DNA from: Chryseobacterium aquaeductus
GTDB lineage: Bacteria > Bacteroidota > Bacteroidia > Flavobacteriales > Weeksellaceae
NCBI RefSeq assembly: GCF_905175375.1
Contig: NZ_CAJIMS010000001.1
Location: 2,790,001-2,854,000, forward strand
Direction: 5' to 3'
DNA: 64,000 bases
Shown: positions 35,231-48,343 of the stretch, piece after piece
Layout of the letters: each line of letters begins with the position of its first letter
Numbering within the stretch: the stretch's first letter is position 1
The notes under the pieces: model-generated
The model's database searches: none
What the model was told of the DNA's origin: nothing
Seen by the model: only the letters and a program-made list of their open reading frames with translations
Program-made: the position numbers and the translations under genes

Positions 35231-35297
35231 TTTACGGATTCCCATCATCATGATCATTATTTTTCAGTTACATTTGACAAAACTAAAAACCACGGAA

Positions 35298-36191
35298 ATG
35301 AGATTTACAGCCATTGACTTTGAAAAGGCAAACAATGATTCATGTTCGGTCTGCAGTATCGGAATCTCGGTATTTGAAAATGGAATGGTAATCTATTCAG
35401 ATAACTTTCTGGTACAGCCACCCGGCAATGAATACCTTCCCCTTCATACCTCCATCCACGGAATCGCTGCAGAAGATACCTGTACCGCTCCGCATTTTCC
35501 TGAGGTTTGGGATTTGATCAGCGAACATATTGAAGGTCAGATTGTTGTGGCACACAATGGATGTACGGTAGAATTTCCGATTCTGGAAAGCTTATTCAGG
35601 TATTATGAAATGGAAATGCCTTCGTACCAAGGCATCTGTACTTTACAGCTTTCTCAACAGCTTTTTCCTTATCTGAACAATCATCAATTGTCAACACTTG
35701 CCGAACTGTTGAATCTGAATTTCAGCGAAAAGCTTCATCACAACTCCCAATACGACGCAGAAGTTTGCGGTTTGATTTTCCTGAGAATGCATCAGTACTT
35801 CAAATTGAACAGCTCCTTTCAGCCCGATCATAAAATAAAAAAAGAAGCTGTAAAAAAAGATTTCTTTTCAGAAACTTTCGCCTCCAAGAAGATTGATTCT
35901 TCACTCATTTACCCAACCGAAAAACCAAAGTACGAAAACCACTATTTCTATTCTAAAAAAGTAGTCATCACCGGAGAATTCACTGCCTTCCCAAAACAGC
36001 GAAACAAATTAGCACAGATATTATTTGACTGCGGAGCAGATATCAACACCAGTATTTCAAAAAATACAGATCTGGTACTGGTAGGAACAGGAGCCGGACC
36101 CAAGAAAATGGAAAAGATTTCTGCTTTGAGTATTGCGGTGATGAATGAGGAGGAATTGCTGGGGTTGATTAAAGATTTTATAAATAGTTAG
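35298..36191 (+). CDS. DEDDh 3'-5' exonuclease fused to a C-terminal BRCT domain
   Basis: A 297-aa protein. The N-terminal exonuclease (DnaQ fold) has MRFTAIDFEKAN (Asp7, Glu9), HTSIHGIAAED, IVVAHNGCTVEFPIL (ExoII, Asp-like region) and HHNSQYDAEVCGLIFLRMH (ExoIII, His and Asp). The BRCT domain covers about residues 222-297 (SKKVVITGEFTAFPKQRNKL, DCGADINTSISKNTDLVLVG, GPKKMEKISALSIAVMNEEE). The same pair occurs in some Firmicutes and Bacteroidetes DNA polymerase epsilon-like proteins. I start at ATG 35298 rather than the earlier 35250 ATG, as residues before it are not conserved-looking. Confidence 0.88.
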   Translation: MRFTAIDFEKANNDSCSVCSIGISVFENGMVIYSDNFLVQPPGNEYLPLHTSIHGIAAEDTCTAPHFPEVWDLISEHIEGQIVVAHNGCTVEFPILESLFRYYEMEMPSYQGICTLQLSQQLFPYLNNHQLSTLAELLNLNFSEKLHHNSQYDAEVCGLIFLRMHQYFKLNSSFQPDHKIKKEAVKKDFFSETFASKKIDSSLIYPTEKPKYENHYFYSKKVVITGEFTAFPKQRNKLAQILFDCGADINTSISKNTDLVLVGTGAGPKKMEKISALSIAVMNEEELLGLIKDFINS

Positions 36192-36234: not shown

Positions 36235-36263
36235 TTGTGAGACAAGTATTTTTAATATCTTTG
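36235..36263 (+). promoter_or_regulatory. Promoter of the MazG-helicase operon
   Basis: TTG at 36235-36237 and TATCTTTG at 36256-36263 are separated by 18 bases, matching the Bacteroidetes TTG-N17-23-TAnnTTTG promoter. The ATG of the MazG-like gene lies 54 bp downstream. It is the best promoter match in the accessory region. Confidence 0.65.
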
Positions 36264-36317: not shown

Positions 36318-36647
36318 ATGGAAGACTTCAAAGCCCTTATTAAGGAAATAATAAAATTCCGAGACGAAAGAGATTGGGAACAGTTTCATAATTCTAAAGA
36401 TCTGGCACTCGCACTTTCTGTTGAAGCTTCTGAACTATTGGAATTATTTCTTTGGAAAAATAATGAAGATTTTAATTTAAACAAGCTTAAGGATGAACTA
36501 GCTGATGTATTTATGTATGCATTTTTAATAGCTAATAAAAACGATTTAGATATTCATCAAATCGTACTTGATAAAATAAAAAAGAATGCAGATAAATATC
36601 CAGTTGATAAGGCTAAAGGCAATTCAACTAAATATAACGAATTGTAG
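36318..36647 (+). CDS. MazG-like nucleotide pyrophosphohydrolase
   Basis: A 109-aa all-helical protein of the MazG/iMazG superfamily. The metal-binding motifs are LALALSVEASELLELFLW (ExxE) and LKDELADVFMYAFLIAN (ExxD); the rest, with KIKKNADKYPVDKAKGN, is the conserved C-terminal tail. Such enzymes hydrolyse non-canonical NTPs to NMP and pyrophosphate and can deplete dNTPs. It is the first gene of an operon, 11 bp before the helicase; the tight link suggests joint action, for example nucleotide depletion in defence. Confidence 0.9.
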   Translation: MEDFKALIKEIIKFRDERDWEQFHNSKDLALALSVEASELLELFLWKNNEDFNLNKLKDELADVFMYAFLIANKNDLDIHQIVLDKIKKNADKYPVDKAKGNSTKYNEL

Positions 36648-36658
36648 ACCGCAAAATA

Positions 36659-38833
36659 ATGTCAAATAACTTTTCCATTAAGCAATATCCTTTCGATAAT
36701 CAATTAGAATCTACAATACTTGAGAATCATCGTGCTTTTCTCAACTGGCCACTTGTTTACTTTTTAGAAGAAGAGAGAAGTAAAGAAGCTTACGTTGGTG
36801 AAACTACAGATGTACTGACCAGATTAAAGGCACATTCAAAGTCAGAGAAAAAACAAAATTTAAGTTGTGTCAATTTAATACTAAGTGAAAGATTTAATAA
36901 ATCAGCAACCTTAGATGTCGAATCAAATCTAATAAGATATATAGCAGCTGACGGTACTTATTCACTTCAAAATGGGAACTTGGGGATTTCAAATCATCAA
37001 TATTACCAACAGAAAGAAGTGTACTGGGAATTATTCAAAGATATTTGGGGTGAACTGAGAAGCATGGGAATTGCCAGACATTCTCTTGATTATATCGATA
37101 ACTCAGATCTATTTAAATATTCTCCATACAAATCACTTTCTAAAGAACAGATTAACGGACTGAAAACAATGTTGATCTGTCTTTTGGATGATCAGGCGAA
37201 AGTGAGTTTAATTCAGGGTGGAGCAGGTACAGGTAAATCAATACTTGCAATCTTTCTTTTTAAATTGCTAAAAACAGATCTGAATGACTTCAATTATTCA
37301 GATTTTGATGAGGAAGATGAAGAGTTATTCCGACTTTTAGAAAATGTTAAGGCTAAATATGGAGATTTGAATATGGCTTTGGTTATACCGATGGCGTCCT
37401 TCAGAAAAACTATATCCAATGTTTTTAAAAACATCAAAGGATTATCCCAAAAGATGGTCATCGGACCTTCGGAAATAACCAAACAGAAATATGATCTCCT
37501 CATTGTTGATGAAGGACACCGACTTAGACGAAGAGTAAATTTGGGATCTTATTTCGGAACTTTTGATAAAAATAGTGAGCTGTTAGGTTTAGATAAGATG
37601 ACGTCTTCCGAACTGGATTGGATTCAGATGCAGAGTGAAAAATCGATTATTTTTTACGATCAGTTTCAATCCATTAAGCCATCTGATGCTACTCCGGAAA
37701 GTTTTTACGCTTTAAAACAATTACTAAGTACACGGAATGAAAAGTTAAGTACACAATTCAGAGTAAAAGGGGGGAATCAATATGTAAATTTAGTACATCA
37801 ACTGTTTGACAAAAAAGATTGGACAGAACAAAACCAACAGAGTACAGGATTTTACGATCTTCAATTGTTTGATGATCTGAATGAAATGGTTGACCAGATT
37901 CATCAGAAGGAAAAGCAGAGAGGATTATCCAGAATGGTCGCAGGATTTGCATGGGAGTGGATCTCAAAAAATGACAGGTCGAAATTTGATATTGTAGTTG
38001 GTGACACATCATTACAATGGAACAGTATAGTAATAGACTGGGTGAATTCTCCCAATGCAATCAACGAAGTTGGCTGCATACATACGACACAAGGTTACGA
38101 TTTGAATTATACAGGAGTTATTATTGGTCCTGAACTGGACTATGATTTTGAGACCAAAGAATTAGTTGTTTACAAAGAAAATTATAAGGATAAAAATGGT
38201 AAAAACTCAATAAAAGATCCGAAAGTTCTGCTGGATTATGTCATTAATATTTACAAAACCATACTGCTGCGAGGAATTGAGGGCACGTATATTTACGTCT
38301 GCAATCCAAATTTGCGAAAATACTTTGCACAGGTAATTCCGTCTTTTAAAAACTCAGAAGATGAGGTGAAAAACTATTCTATAGTTGATACTCCTAATGA
38401 ATTTACGGTTCCGTATTATGATCTTAAAATTGCAGCAGGAAAGTTTTCAGACTTGCAATCAGTAGAAGAAGTAAAATATATTGAATTAAAAAACATAACC
38501 AATCATGCTGACTATTTTGTCTGTAAAGTGGTAGGGGAATCAATGAATAAGGTTATTCCGAATGGAAGTCTTTGTTTATTCAAAAAATATTCTGTAGGGA
38601 GTCGGAACGGATTAATAACCTTAGTTGAAGGAAATGATATCTTCGATAGTGAAACGGGCGCAAACTACACGATTAAAGAATATTTAAGCAAGAAAAACAT
38701 TGATGAAGAAGGGTGGCATCATGAAGAGATTTCTTTGAAACCTTTATCTACAGAGTTTTTTGAATCTATTGTTTTAAGAGATGAGGAGACGATGAATTTT
38801 AAAGTGATTGGGATTTTTGAGAAATTATTATAA
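36659..38833 (+). CDS. GIY-YIG + Schlafen-group-3-type helicase (DUF2075) + S24/LexA-like peptidase fusion
   Basis: A 724-aa protein with three domains. First, a GIY-YIG nuclease (residues 28-100): PLVYFLEEERSKEAYVGETT, RLKAHSK and a possible catalytic Glu in DVESNLIRYI. Second, a superfamily 1-like ATPase of the DUF2075 type (about 165-560) with Walker A GGAGTGKS (187-194), Walker B LLIVDEGH (280-287) and QFRVKGGNQYV later. Third, at about 612-724, an S24/LexA-like fold with VVGESMNKVIPNGSLCLF (nucleophile Ser) and NYTIKEYL (candidate Lys). No transmembrane segment. It is co-transcribed with MazG. The arrangement points to a DNA- or RNA-targeting, damage-sensing or defence role, as an inference. 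Confidence 0.85.
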   Translation: MSNNFSIKQYPFDNQLESTILENHRAFLNWPLVYFLEEERSKEAYVGETTDVLTRLKAHSKSEKKQNLSCVNLILSERFNKSATLDVESNLIRYIAADGTYSLQNGNLGISNHQYYQQKEVYWELFKDIWGELRSMGIARHSLDYIDNSDLFKYSPYKSLSKEQINGLKTMLICLLDDQAKVSLIQGGAGTGKSILAIFLFKLLKTDLNDFNYSDFDEEDEELFRLLENVKAKYGDLNMALVIPMASFRKTISNVFKNIKGLSQKMVIGPSEITKQKYDLLIVDEGHRLRRRVNLGSYFGTFDKNSELLGLDKMTSSELDWIQMQSEKSIIFYDQFQSIKPSDATPESFYALKQLLSTRNEKLSTQFRVKGGNQYVNLVHQLFDKKDWTEQNQQSTGFYDLQLFDDLNEMVDQIHQKEKQRGLSRMVAGFAWEWISKNDRSKFDIVVGDTSLQWNSIVIDWVNSPNAINEVGCIHTTQGYDLNYTGVIIGPELDYDFETKELVVYKENYKDKNGKNSIKDPKVLLDYVINIYKTILLRGIEGTYIYVCNPNLRKYFAQVIPSFKNSEDEVKNYSIVDTPNEFTVPYYDLKIAAGKFSDLQSVEEVKYIELKNITNHADYFVCKVVGESMNKVIPNGSLCLFKKYSVGSRNGLITLVEGNDIFDSETGANYTIKEYLSKKNIDEEGWHHEEISLKPLSTEFFESIVLRDEETMNFKVIGIFEKLL

Positions 38834-39036: not shown

Positions 39037-42000
39037 ATGAAGGCATTATATGAGGACAATGAAGAAACCATTAATTTTCTTGAGGAACAAATTTTTCCCA
39101 AAATTTATGAAGGTAATACTATTTTATTTCTTGGTGCGGGCTCATCTGTTACTGAGAAAAAGTTTCTTGGTAAAGAAATAATTGATTACTATGAAGAAAA
39201 ATTGCAAATAAATTTAGAAACAAATGATTTAGTTGAGTTTTTAGATCGAGCGATAAATCTTGACACCTTCAATCGTTATGAATTTGATCAATATATAAAA
39301 GAATTACTTTCTAAGTTGAAACCAACAGAATATCATAAGAAAATTGTGAGTTTAGATTGGAGACAAATAATCACAACAAATTTGGATTTGATTTTAGAGA
39401 ATTCATACAATGATATCGTTGGTACACCAGAAGAACAAAAGGAAATTATTCCTGTACGCAACACTTACGAATTTAATCAAACTCTATCTAATGACCAGAT
39501 CAAGTATATTAAACTAAACGGTTGTATTAGCGATGTTAAAAAATATAAATTTATTTTTTCAAGTGCAGACTTCAGTGCTAACAAAAAGTTTTACAATTTG
39601 ACTATAAGAAATTTAAGTAATTTGTCGGACAGGGTAAATTTTCTTGCTATAGGATACTCATTTACTGATGGACTTTCAAAGCAATTACTGTCCGCATTGA
39701 AAGTTAATAATATTCAGAAGGAGCGAGTTGTCTACAATATTAATCCTCACTTTAATCATGCATTAATTCCTTTTTTAGAAGAAAATAATATAGTAACTAT
39801 TGCTCTTACTACAGAGTCTTTTTTTGAAAATTACACAAGATGGGAAAGTAATAAAGTTGATAAAATAAAAAAAAAATCGAATATTCATTTTTATAATAAT
39901 CAAGATCATAATATTTTCCTTGAAAATAAATTAGCTTTAAGGCTAAAAGATAAGCTGTTCCAATTATGCTCGAATTCATTAGAAGAAAAGATTTCTCCTC
40001 AAAATTTTTATAAGGGTGAAATTCCAAATTATTCTATTATTAAAAATGACTACGATATAATTAAAAGTAGTTTAAATAAAAAGATAAAGGATAAAATTTA
40101 TCAAACTGGAAAAAAAGATAATTTGATTCCAATACTTTTTATATCAGGAAATTATGGTATTGGTAAAACAACATCAACGTACAGGGCAATTAAAGAAGTT
40201 ATTAGTGAGGGGGATTTTGTTTGTTTTGAAATTATAGATTCTTCAAACATGCGTTATCAAGATTTACAAGTTCTTTTCAGCAAATGCGCTACCAAGAATA
40301 TTATTCTATTTATAGATTATATTGAAAGAGATAGTATTTTCAAAGAACTGACCCAACTACGACTAAAACTTAGTGCTGAACAGCTAGACTACAATATTAT
40401 ATTTGTAGCACCAATAAGAGACAATAATTTAAATAAATTTATATCTGCCTACAGATATAAAAATATAGAAGTTATACCTGCTGATCATTTACTAACAGAT
40501 GATGAAATAAAAAGTTTAATTAAAAAATTAAAACTTTATAATATTATAAGTATCAGGGATAAGGATGAAGAAAATAATATTTTTAATCAAATTAAATTTA
40601 AATTCGGTTCAGACCCATATGTTGCCTTGTTAGGTATTATTGAAAATAATAAATTAGATCGTGTAATTAATGATGTACTAAGCTTCTTACCAAAAGATGC
40701 AAAAGATGCGTTTGTATTTACGTCACTATTATACCAATATAATATTCCTATGCCCGGTAGTATATTAAAAAAAGTTGTTACTACAGACTGGAAAACATTT
40801 AAAGAAAATATATTAGATGTTGATTGTAAAGGTATTTTAATCAATCATATTGAGTCACCTCATGATACAAATGATGATTTATTTTTTAGAACAAAACATC
40901 CAATCATTTCACAGAAAACAATTGAAACTCTTTATAAAAATAAGGATAGGTTATTTACTGATTATCTTAAAATTGTACGGGTTCTAAATCCGAATGATGA
41001 GCATGCGAAAATTTTTGTAGATTTGATAAAATTTCTAAAAAAAGATGTTTTAGACAAAGTAAAAATTGATCTGCTTTTTGAAGAGGCTGCTAAAACATTT
41101 GAAACAAATCAAAATTTTACAATTCAATTGGCAATGAATCTTGAGCAGAAAAAAGATTTAAAATCACTTATGCTCGCATCCGAAAAGTTAAAGTATATTG
41201 AATCGATTACTGACAGGAGAAATACACACATTATTCATAGAAGGGGTGTAATTGATTTTGCTATAGCTAAATTATATCATAAGGACGATAAGGCTTATTT
41301 ACGCGACGAATATATTAACAGTGCCAGAGAATTTTTTCAAATAAAACAATTAGTTGATACCTTTAGTTCATATAGTTACTTTGATTTCATTAAATTAGAA
41401 TTATGGGTTTTAAATAAAATAGAGTTGACAAGTGAAGAAAAAATTTTACAGCATATTACTGTTCAAGAATTATTTATTAAAGCAATCTATGCAGTTAATG
41501 AAAATTTAGAGAAAATTATCACACTCAAAAACCTATATATAAGAGAAATCGAAGGAGATATTTATACAGCTGATGAAATAATTAAACATTTCGAACTTTT
41601 ATACGAAAACGTTGAAACAAGACCATTTGCATTGATATTTAAATTGAATTGCATAGATAATGAATTCTTTAGCTTTTCAAGCCGCTTATTAAAAAGTCAT
41701 TCTTTGATAGACGTTATCGATGAGCTGCATTATTACACTTATTTAGATTCTGTGAAGGAGTCCTTATTCAATTACTATTCAAAACGGACGTATTTATTAG
41801 AATCTCGGATAAAATTAAATACTTTTAAAGATGACCCATATTTAGAAAAAAATGTATTTAATTATAATTTTACTTTCTTTATAAAAGAATGCTACGATTA
41901 TCAATTTTCGCACGCAAAAAATTACTTAAAAAATTTATCAGATATAAGGTTTGTCAATTTGAAGGAAAGCATAAATTGGTTAGATGATGAAACACTAGAG

Positions 42001-42207
42001 CCTAAAGAGTTTGAGGGTTCTATTGATAAGAAAGTGAACTCGTTATATATATATATCCCATCTTTGGGTCAACGATTTAGGGCTTTAAAGAATGGCGAGG
42101 AGATTATGGGTCACAGTGATAAGTTTTCATGTAATTTGGAATTTACACCGACAGGAATAATTGCAAGGAATTTAAAAAAGATTCCTGAAGTTGGATTGAA
42201 TTTCTAA
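39037..42207 (+). CDS. SIR2-domain protein with P-loop (STAND-like) NTPase, 1056 aa
   Basis: A large soluble protein. Residues 25-270 are a SIR2 domain: LFLGAGSS (33-37), TTNLD (113-117), IKLNGCISD (158-166) and FLAIGYSFTDG (203-212). Residues 360-560 are a P-loop NTPase with Walker A GNYGIGKTT (371-379) and Walker B IILFIDYIE (422-430). The C-terminal half is an all-helical, repeat-like region suited to target sensing. This layout resembles the SIR2-STAND anti-phage proteins (Avs5-type), which deplete NAD+ on infection. Unusually, the sirtuin His (LHG) is Asn here. It is more AT-rich than its neighbours and 203 bp after the helicase gene; that gap shows no other feature. Confidence 0.88.
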   Translation: MKALYEDNEETINFLEEQIFPKIYEGNTILFLGAGSSVTEKKFLGKEIIDYYEEKLQINLETNDLVEFLDRAINLDTFNRYEFDQYIKELLSKLKPTEYHKKIVSLDWRQIITTNLDLILENSYNDIVGTPEEQKEIIPVRNTYEFNQTLSNDQIKYIKLNGCISDVKKYKFIFSSADFSANKKFYNLTIRNLSNLSDRVNFLAIGYSFTDGLSKQLLSALKVNNIQKERVVYNINPHFNHALIPFLEENNIVTIALTTESFFENYTRWESNKVDKIKKKSNIHFYNNQDHNIFLENKLALRLKDKLFQLCSNSLEEKISPQNFYKGEIPNYSIIKNDYDIIKSSLNKKIKDKIYQTGKKDNLIPILFISGNYGIGKTTSTYRAIKEVISEGDFVCFEIIDSSNMRYQDLQVLFSKCATKNIILFIDYIERDSIFKELTQLRLKLSAEQLDYNIIFVAPIRDNNLNKFISAYRYKNIEVIPADHLLTDDEIKSLIKKLKLYNIISIRDKDEENNIFNQIKFKFGSDPYVALLGIIENNKLDRVINDVLSFLPKDAKDAFVFTSLLYQYNIPMPGSILKKVVTTDWKTFKENILDVDCKGILINHIESPHDTNDDLFFRTKHPIISQKTIETLYKNKDRLFTDYLKIVRVLNPNDEHAKIFVDLIKFLKKDVLDKVKIDLLFEEAAKTFETNQNFTIQLAMNLEQKKDLKSLMLASEKLKYIESITDRRNTHIIHRRGVIDFAIAKLYHKDDKAYLRDEYINSAREFFQIKQLVDTFSSYSYFDFIKLELWVLNKIELTSEEKILQHITVQELFIKAIYAVNENLEKIITLKNLYIREIEGDIYTADEIIKHFELLYENVETRPFALIFKLNCIDNEFFSFSSRLLKSHSLIDVIDELHYYTYLDSVKESLFNYYSKRTYLLESRIKLNTFKDDPYLEKNVFNYNFTFFIKECYDYQFSHAKNYLKNLSDIRFVNLKESINWLDDETLEPKEFEGSIDKKVNSLYIYIPSLGQRFRALKNGEEIMGHSDKFSCNLEFTPTGIIARNLKKIPEVGLNF

Positions 42208-46537: not shown

Positions 46538-48343
46538 ATGCAAAACATTAGAAATATTGCGATTATCGCACACGTTGACCACGGCAAGACTACCTTGGTT
46601 GATAAAATAATCCACGCAACAAGCGTCTTTAGAGACAATCAGGAATCTGGAGATTTAATAATGGATAATAACGATCTGGAGAGAGAGCGTGGTATCACTA
46701 TTTTATCAAAAAATATTTCTGTAATGTACCACGGTACAAAAATAAATGTTATTGATACACCTGGTCACGCCGATTTCGGTGGTGAAGTAGAGCGTGTATT
46801 AAAAATGGCAGATGGTGTACTTTTATTAGTAGATGCTTTTGAAGGACCAATGCCACAGACAAGATTCGTATTGCAGAAAGCTTTAGAATTAGGTTTGAGA
46901 CCGGTAGTGGTAATCAATAAAGTAGATAAGCCAAACTGTCGTCCGGATGAGGTTCACGATAAAGTTTTTGACTTATTTTATAACCTGGATGCTACTGAAG
47001 CACAGTTGGATTTCCCAACATTCTACGGTTCGTCAAAACAAGGTTGGTTCAATACTTCATTAGAACAAACAGAAGATATTTTCCCTCTATTAGACGGAAT
47101 CCTGGAACACGTTCCGGCTCCTGAAGCGAAAGAAGGTCCATTGAGAATGCAGATTGTATCTTTAGATTTCTCTTCTTTCTTAGGAAGAATTGCGATTGGT
47201 AAAGTTATTCAGGGTTCTGTAAGCGAATCTGAATGGATCGGTCTTGCACAGGAAGATGGTAAAATTGTAAAAGGAAAAGTAAAAGAATTATACGTTTTCG
47301 AAGGTTTAGGTAAGAAAAAAGTTACTGAAGTAAAAGCCGGAGATATTTGTGCAATTGTTGGTTTTGATAAATTCCAGATTGGTGATTCATTCGTTGATTT
47401 AGAAAATCCGCAACCATTGCCAAGAACTGCAATTGACGAGCCTACGCTGAACATGACGTTCTCAATCAACAACTCTCCATTCTTTGGAAAAGACGGTAAA
47501 TTTGTAACTTCAAATCACCTGAAAGAAAGATTGATGCGTGAGTTGGAGAAAAACTTAGCGTTAAGAGTTGAGCCTACTGAAGATGCCAACACATTCTTGG
47601 TATTCGGTAGAGGTATTCTTCACTTGTCGGTTTTGATCGAAACAATGAGAAGAGAAGGGTACGAAATGACGATCGGTCAGCCACAGGTTATCCTGAAAGA
47701 AATTGATGGTGTGAAATGTGAGCCTTACGAAAGTATGGTGGTAGATGTACCTGAAGAATTTGCTTCAAAAGTAATCGACCTAGCGACACAGAGAAAAGGT
47801 GACCTTCACATTATGGAAACTAAAGGTGAAATGCAACACCTGGAATTCGAAATTCCTTCAAGAGGTTTGATCGGATTGCGTTCTCAGATGTTGACGGCTA
47901 CTGCTGGTGAAGCGATTATGGCTCACCGTTTTGTAGATTATAAGCCTTTCAAAGGAGCAATTCCTGGAAGATCTGTTGGGGTATTGATCAGCAAATCTCA
48001 AGGTCCTGCAACTGAATATTCTATTGCTAAATTACAGGACAGAGGTAAGTTTTTCGTTGATCCGGGCGAGGAGATCTACGCTGGAATGGTGATCGGTGAG
48101 CAAAACAAGCCGAATGATATGGTAGTAAACATCGTAGAAGCAAAACAGCTGAACAACATCCGTGCTGCAGGTAAGGATAAAGATGGTAACATCGCTCCGA
48201 AAATACTTTTCTCTCTGGAAGAGTGTATGGAATACATCCAGGGTGATGAAGCAATCGAGGTAACTCCAAACTTCATCCGTATGAGAAAGAAAGTACTTTC
48301 TGAAGAAGAAAGAAAAAGAATTGAAAGAGGAGCGAAAGCGTAA
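46538..48343 (+). CDS. typA: Translational GTPase TypA/BipA
   Basis: A 601-aa ribosome-associated GTPase, the usual length. G1 is [10 protein letters not shown] (residues 10-19), G2 RGITI, G3 [11 protein letters not shown]4 [10 protein letters not shown]; domain III/V and the C-terminal domain follow ([47 protein letters not shown]-type end). It acts on ribosome assembly and stress adaptation. Conserved chromosomal gene with its own terminator. Confidence 0.97.

Follow-up and report, generated by a model that had tools for sequence, protein, structure and literature searches.

Here, we describe a two-gene unit (positions 36,318 to 38,833) in a 64,000-nucleotide stretch of the Chryseobacterium aquaeductus genome (contig NZ_CAJIMS010000001.1, positions 2,790,001 to 2,854,000; hereafter, the window), in which a gene for a small MazG-like protein directly precedes a gene for a protein of 724 amino acids (aa) that joins a GIY-YIG nuclease, a Schlafen group 3 (SLFN-g3) helicase and a C-terminal domain of the peptidase S24 type. 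The pair is real, conserved and, very probably, defensive, and its likely role is that of a mobile anti-phage defence cassette. The two genes are strictly paired, their catalytic residues are invariant, the tail is reused on other proteins, and the neighbourhood is one of defence genes. The surprising part of this nuclease-helicase defence variant is the tail, a predicted self-cleaving module that also occurs on restriction enzymes.

The MazG-like and nuclease-helicase genes form a strict unit

A preliminary description, made from the sequence of the window alone, had named two adjacent genes, and both are real: the plus strand carries an open reading frame (ORF) for a MazG-like protein of 109 aa (36318-36647) and, after a gap of 11 bases on the same strand, the ORF for the 724-aa protein (36659-38833), each with Pfam matches and the larger one also with an AlphaFold model. 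All four of its domain calls, MazG, GIY-YIG, SLFN-g3/DUF2075 and S24, were matched by Pfam. The unit had also been called promoter-led; a match to TANNTTTG, which we take to be a Bacteroidota-type -7 box, does start 62 bases before the MazG ATG (36256-36263, plus strand), but it is weak, and the same 8-mer occurs 43 times on the plus strand of the window.

Homologues were searched in 59 genomes, the window's own included (genomes and loci are denoted by G and L numbers). The 724-aa protein has full-length homologues in nine of these, namely the window's own genome, 7 of the 35 same-genus genomes and G047, and partial matches in two more (G008 and G039); the pair is thus patchy within the genus. 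MazG lies directly upstream in all nine full-length loci. At an E-value of 1e-40, searches of 395 genomes from the order and 395 from the phylum (overlapping sets) found relatives of the 724-aa protein in 26 and 21, respectively, and MazG was upstream in all 20 loci fetched from them (L062-L081, overlapping with the other sets), which include a tail-less protein (L077), one with an internal stop (L072) and a short one (L081); in L074 only the 3' end of the MazG gene is visible, at the contig edge, and in L064 and L067 MazG was located by tblastn. A scan of the best 80 of at least 177 relatives from named genomes placed MazG immediately upstream, in the same orientation, in 77, more than chance would give, with the two genes overlapping by 4 bases in 43 of the 77. 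The three misses comprise two contig ends (L133 and L167) and one locus (L159) with upstream ORFs that were read as transposase-like by eye. The two-gene unit of the preliminary description is borne out, and it is a strict one.

The 77 tree rows that carry names comprise 55 Bacteroidota, 18 Pseudomonadota and one-off cases from other groups. In a FastTree phylogeny of 78 rows, the phylum label changes five times, the minimum possible being four, which indicates that the pair is patchy within groups and seldom crosses phyla. Viral contigs gave 83 pattern matches but no relative. Among 50,697 phage records there were 4 matches, the best of them an unverified gut phage clone (MT836409.1; L211) that encodes MazG together with a tail-less GIY-YIG/SLFN-g3 protein. 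A phage-encoded origin was set aside on these results.

The S24 tail carries a predicted self-cleavage site

The C-terminal domain of the 724-aa protein (residues 586-724; 38414-38830, plus strand) was assigned to the S24 (LexA/UmuD) type by Pfam (PF00717, E 5.5e-5, residues 586-660, right at the curated cut-off) and by alignment to Escherichia coli LexA and UmuD with hhalign, each template being a single sequence. The tail aligns over LexA residues 73-198 such that A593-G594, the predicted scissile bond (38435-38440), falls on the LexA cleavage site, the predicted catalytic Ser628 (in GESMN; 38540-38542) on Ser119 and the predicted catalytic Lys673 (in YTIKEY; 38675-38677) on Lys156, all on the plus strand; UmuD aligns likewise. 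G594 precedes the serine by 34 residues, the Gly-to-Ser spacing of LexA (34) and close to that of UmuD (35), whereas the Ser-to-Lys spacing is 45 in the tail and 37 in both LexA and UmuD.

Conservation was assessed in 106 aligned large proteins (26 + 80, with some genes in both sets). The serine and candidate lysine of the preliminary description are borne out: Ser628 and Lys673 are present in 103 of the 106 and are nowhere substituted, the remaining rows (L166, L167 and L171), shortened or frame-split, having gaps. At the scissile position, A593 and G594 are each kept in 103 rows, the former being Cys in L157, which thus reads Cys-Gly, the alternative scissile pair of S24 self-cleaving proteases, Glu in L162 and a gap in L167, and the latter Ser in L162, Ala in L166 and a gap in L167. 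At the sequence level, self-cleavage mediated by RecA is determined by an Ala-Gly bond combined with a Ser-Lys pair, according to the retrieved part of the source (PMC8565304). From this pattern, we lean towards the view that the tail is a self-cleaving switch, with the cut predicted at A593-G594.

The tail is also the only Peptidase_S24 match in the genome of the window at E 0.001; the LexA_DNA_bind family was not found there, and RecA is present. Across the genus, an S24 match of some kind occurs in 44 of 60 genomes, partly to this same tail. According to the retrieved part of PMC8565304, the LexA proteins of Bacteroidota are non-canonical but retain S24, so that failing to find the LexA DNA-binding family would by itself say little, and the lack of a further S24 match carries more weight.

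Nuclease, helicase and pyrophosphohydrolase

GIY-YIG nucleases are marked by conserved Tyr/Tyr/Gly motifs, a catalytic Arg and Glu, and an Asn. The corresponding domain of the 724-aa protein (residues ~32-107; 36752-36979, plus strand; PF01541, E 1.7e-5, residues 32-71) shows V33-Y34, Y45-V-G47, R55, H59, E88 and N105; Y34, Y45, G47 and R55 are found in 105 of the 106 aligned proteins (one gap), and E88 and N105 in all. The superfamily 1 (SF1)-type SLFN-g3 helicase that follows (residues 181-548; 37199-38302, plus strand) is matched by PF09848, formerly DUF2075, at E 2e-60, and its Walker lysine K193, DE 284-285, Q337, R368 and R538 are present in 106 of 106 rows. No N-terminal Schlafen core, part of the usual make-up of Schlafens, was recognised by Pfam; GIY-YIG stands in its place, which makes the 724-aa protein a helicase relative rather than a Schlafen. 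By domains and residues, it combines a nuclease with a nucleoside triphosphate-driven motor, as do type IV restriction enzymes. The AlphaFold model, built with 26 sequences including the window's own, has a mean pLDDT of 81.5 and a pTM of 0.70; a sequence search of solved structures with the whole protein gave no match. In PADLOC (2023), MazG had no match and the 724-aa protein only partial ones (PDC-S14, AbiO and PDC-M16A), with no model fitting either protein over its full length.

The 109-aa protein belongs to PF12643 (MazG-like, E 3.7e-17), and a profile of ten such MazG proteins matched dCTP (deoxycytidine triphosphate) pyrophosphatase 1 (DCTPP1; 6sqw) at E 1e-22 over 98 of 109 positions. 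E36, E39, E60, D63, W46 and Y94 are present in all 87 aligned MazG proteins, and W20 and H24 in 86 of the 87 (one gap); the first four are presumably the metal ligands. By this match, the protein is of the DCTPP1 type, a predicted dCTP/5-modified-dCTP pyrophosphohydrolase. DCTPP1 is reported to hydrolyse dCTP and 5-methyl-, 5-formyl- and 5-halo-dCTP (retrieved part of PMC7162842), and 5-methyl-dCTP hydrolases are named in E. coli (Orf135) and mammals (retrieved part of PMC10742078). The nucleotide depletion suggested in the preliminary description narrows accordingly to the cytosine pool, but with cleaning of that pool as likely a function as starvation.

The tail is reused, and the partners are exchanged

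A search with the tail in the 395 phylum genomes found 18 genomes with a match: 10 with proteins of the window type, 5 with PLD-superfamily 2 (SF2) helicase-DUF3427 proteins, 2 with HsdR and 1 at a contig end, with the body unseen. All five complete DUF3427 proteins were Pfam-scanned, and a sixth case, cut by a contig end (L083), came from the order search. A NUDIX gene lies directly upstream in 5 of 5 DUF3427 loci with upstream DNA. In L082 and L084-L087, this gene overlaps the start of the PLD-SF2-DUF3427-S24 gene, forming a sister system with another pyrophosphohydrolase. The tails of the two HsdR proteins (L192:6025-9570 and L193:9036-12584) keep AAG, Ser and Lys; the L192 HsdR is accompanied by HsdM and by an AAA/HNH pair (Pfam), and the ORFs adjoining the L193 HsdR, the only protein scanned there, resemble those of L192 by eye. 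The S24 tail is a module that the 724-aa protein shares with two differently built nuclease-motor proteins, the DUF3427 type and HsdR.

Exchange also extends to the body. MazG is paired with a tail-less helicase of ~620 aa in 7 of 7 loci (Pfam on 4 of the 7), the N-terminus of which shows a motif resembling PD-(D/E)XK on reading by eye. On a Halomonas plasmid (L195:3959-6892), a PD-(D/E)XK-like/SLFN-g3/S24 gene, split in the record, has MazG downstream, not upstream. Tail-less bodies that retain MazG (L077, L166 and the gut clone L211) indicate that the tail is optional. What recurs across these loci is the grouping of a nuclease and a helicase with a nucleotide pyrophosphohydrolase, the individual parts being exchanged.

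Defence genes around the pair

The defence-island setting anticipated for the pair was found: a defence-type gene is next downstream in 7 of the 9 first loci. The next gene encodes a DRT RT-UG5-nitrilase, followed by McrBC, in L012; a PDC-M62 Septu-like pair, followed by McrBC, in L013; GmrSD in L014; an OLD nuclease in both L015 and L016; and, ahead of McrBC, an AAA_5 protein in L018. In the window, the gene that follows (39037-42207, plus strand) encodes a SIR2/nSTAND protein of 1056 aa (SIR2_2, E 5.8e-12; nSTAND_NTPase5 just under the cut-off), which had no PADLOC match at E 0.1 and which we take to be Avs-like; it is a candidate defence gene of its own. As a third component of the unit it is out, because the examined relatives have a different defence gene or none in that place. 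In L068, the second gene downstream of the pair encodes RADAR RdrB, and the first matched nothing in PADLOC or Pfam; an 802-aa ORF downstream of the pair and beside this RdrB-like gene (L068:3931-8962), lacking a PADLOC or Pfam match, is possibly a divergent RdrA.

The pair occupies one chromosomal spot near typA (TypA/BipA by Pfam; 46538-48343) in both the window and L014, where a typA homologue is present, and the same GTPase, judged by its first residues, is near the pair in L068. The typA gene was found in 36 of 36 genomes of the genus, and the spot was examined in 12 of the 35 same-genus genomes, none of which has the pair, with proteins chosen by eye. Eight of the 12 have a defence gene there, confirmed in each case by PADLOC or Pfam: Cas9 in L201, L207, L208 and L209, type I restriction in L200 and L206, HEC-06/Orf5 (GmrSD-like) in L205 and PtuA in L210. 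No defence gene was seen in the other four (L199, L202, L203 and L204), where not every gene was scanned. The 33-46 kilobase region of the window and its counterparts in L199-L210 constitute a defence hotspot of the genus, at which short-Argonaute-associated genes also alternate.

The spot of the closest relative (L199, from G031; TypA 99 percent identical) is occupied by a series of ORFs, several with the start MYDYGARFYMP; the one that was scanned had no Pfam match, and a reading of these as RHS-type genes is without tool support. Just upstream of the pair in the window is a gene for a DEDDh exonuclease-BRCT protein (35250-36191, plus strand), with a 73.6 percent homologue in the same place in L013; given that L013 was the only one of eight relatives with this homologue upstream, the gene was rejected as a component.

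Proposed mechanism and alternatives

What we infer for the pair, from the activities of its proteins to what triggers the switch, which way it works and which DNA is targeted, combines as follows. The SLFN-g3 motor would move on DNA while the GIY-YIG domain would cut foreign DNA. The S24 tail would cut at A593-G594 and free a nuclease-helicase of 593 residues, and it is this predicted release that would make the tail a switch. The likeliest trigger would be a RecA filament formed on foreign DNA that is damaged or being replicated, and the cut would most likely turn the nuclease on, given that bodies without a tail occur naturally; the RecA-filament trigger and the activating cut are, taken together, possible rather than probable. 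MazG would hydrolyse dCTP and 5-modified dCTPs, thereby keeping modified cytosine, the would-be target of the nuclease, out of host DNA and/or starving a phage that builds modified cytosine. The chances of such hydrolysis serving self-protection and/or phage starvation, as suggested by the resemblance to DCTPP1, fall somewhat short of even. The modified-cytosine idea draws on that resemblance, on the DUF3427 predicted reader of the sister type (the reading of modified DNA by DUF3427 being a prediction in the retrieved part of PMC7159879) and on the McrBC and GmrSD neighbours. The explanation as a whole, a nuclease-helicase defence pair with an S24 switch and a cytosine-pool hydrolase, stands at about an even chance. 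In its widest form, which we consider doubtful, a portable S24 'fuse' would sit on at least three differently built DNA-cutting motors (GIY-YIG/SLFN-g3, PLD/SF2/DUF3427 and HsdR), a RecA filament raised by the invader would switch these nucleases on, and the DCTPP1-type MazG or MutT/NudG-type NUDIX partner would remove 5-modified dCTP and so spare the host DNA. For this genome of the Chryseobacterium group, in which the tail is the sole S24 match, the cassette would then be the one self-cleaving switch under RecA control.

Several observations weigh against this scheme. The hhalign probabilities for the tail are only 13 percent with LexA and 23 percent with UmuD (E 0.0021 and 0.00093), and a profile of the tail reached LexA among solved structures only at E 0.41. 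Ser and Lys persist in L157 and L162, which have Cys for Ala and Glu-Ser for Ala-Gly, respectively, at the predicted bond. No modified-base reader domain was recognised by Pfam in the 724-aa protein, and the NUDIX partner of the sister type, equally near MutT and pyrimidine-type NudG and below both cut-offs, was set aside as a proven dCTP hydrolase. Wide inter-phylum transfer was set aside, the five changes of phylum label indicating that such transfer is rare. Relatives on Bacillota plasmids (L212 and L213) are GIY-YIG-helicases with neither MazG nor a tail within ~4 kilobases. Downstream of the pair, L017 has an opposite-strand helix-turn-helix gene (by eye) and no defence-type neighbour, and L019 only a sub-threshold PLD match. 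Tallies of PADLOC families near and far from the pair (155 vs 57 at E 1e-15) were not used as a statistic, as they count overlapping models rather than genes and list the first 25 families; they cover 130 of the 134 near proteins and 114 of the 117 far ones, after removal of near-duplicates of L109, L143 and L163. The pair was not found in a conserved housekeeping context, nor are its catalytic residues lost, yet outside Chryseobacterium many adjoining genes look like ordinary housekeeping genes by eye.

GIY-YIG, SF1 helicase, S24 and MazG or NUDIX domains all occur in repair or pool sanitation, and the parts would also suit a mobile DNA-repair or SOS cassette, with a UvrC/UvrD-like excision unit, a UmuD-like damage switch and MazG removing damaged nucleotides, in keeping with a tail that is the sole S24 match in a genome with RecA. 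The same tail on the HsdR of type I restriction and on restriction-type DUF3427 proteins, the defence genes at the spot and around it, and the presence of the pair in 7 of the 35 same-genus genomes make this unlikely. Distinctly unlikely is abortive infection in which the pyrophosphohydrolase is the effector, destroying dCTP and halting replication, and the nuclease-helicase is the sensor: deoxynucleotide-destroying defence exists, as in Clover (retrieved part of PMC12265719), and the loci without an S24 tail (L077, L166 and L211) retain MazG, but the MazG-like and NUDIX partners are pool cleaners in known relatives, and the nuclease and helicase residues are invariant beyond the needs of a sensor alone.

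The S24 tail could instead be a folded, non-cleaving domain for oligomerisation or docking on a plain nuclease-helicase, since S24-fold domains can be dimer interfaces and L162 keeps Ser and Lys without Ala-Gly. The near-complete retention of Ser, Lys, A593 and G594, with only gaps at the former two, and the LexA-like Gly-to-Ser spacing render it improbable. Hitch-hiking of the pair in defence islands, with another function such as action on plasmids or transposons, would fit the ordinary-looking flanks outside Chryseobacterium; it is very improbable in view of the nuclease-helicase architecture and the changing neighbours at a defence hotspot, and ridding the cell of plasmids would in any case be a form of defence.

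If the explanation as a nuclease-helicase defence pair with an S24 switch and a cytosine-pool hydrolase is true, the self-cleavage chemistry of the SOS response would act as a post-translational gate on restriction-type nucleases, coupled to cleaning of the cytosine-nucleotide pool, and DNA-damage sensing, nucleotide metabolism and phage defence would be linked in one two-gene cassette. There would also be a directly testable account of house-cleaning genes such as MazG in predicted, not yet validated defence systems (retrieved part of PMC13092281).

Comparison with known systems

The preliminary description knew of no described system with this combination, and none was recognised among the matches listed by a full-text literature search for MazG, GIY-YIG, SLFN-g3 and S24, although it may be described elsewhere. 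The papers listed for DUF2075 included none on defence as judged by titles and the beginnings of abstracts, and the only match for MazG with Schlafen was unrelated. MazG is among the predicted, unvalidated defence domains in DefensePredictor, and the MazG systems there are predicted to be defensive, with no GIY-YIG, Schlafen or S24 partner named in the retrieved part of the source (PMC13092281).

A close likeness is to SauUSI/DUF3427 type IV restriction enzymes (PLD nuclease, SF2 helicase and modified-DNA reader), which also have a nuclease and a helicase on one chain; in a DUF3427 subset, the same S24 tail and an upstream gene for a pyrophosphohydrolase, there a NUDIX protein, are present as well. 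These enzymes differ in having PLD rather than GIY-YIG, a helicase of another class (SF2) and the extra DUF3427 domain. CMoRE, a GIY-YIG type IV restriction enzyme, likewise turns a GIY-YIG nuclease against phage DNA, but it is a single component with a modification-sensing domain, and the retrieved part of its description names no helicase, S24 tail or MazG (PMC12923530). Clover resembles the pair as a two-gene defence unit with a nucleotide-destroying enzyme and differs in consisting of an HD dGTPase and a nucleotidyltransferase, with no nuclease-helicase in the retrieved part of the source (PMC12265719).

Among single proteins, DCTPP1 (RS21-C6) and the MazG of the window have in common the profile match, the conserved W20, H24 and W46 and the metal ligands, whereas the latter is bacterial, shorter and directly beside a nuclease-helicase. 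Group 3 Schlafen helicases share PF09848 with the 724-aa protein, which has GIY-YIG where they have the Schlafen core. Among the S24 autoproteases (LexA, UmuD and CI), LexA has its cleavage site and Ser-Lys pair in register with those of the tail, which is here fused to a nuclease-helicase, not to a repressor.

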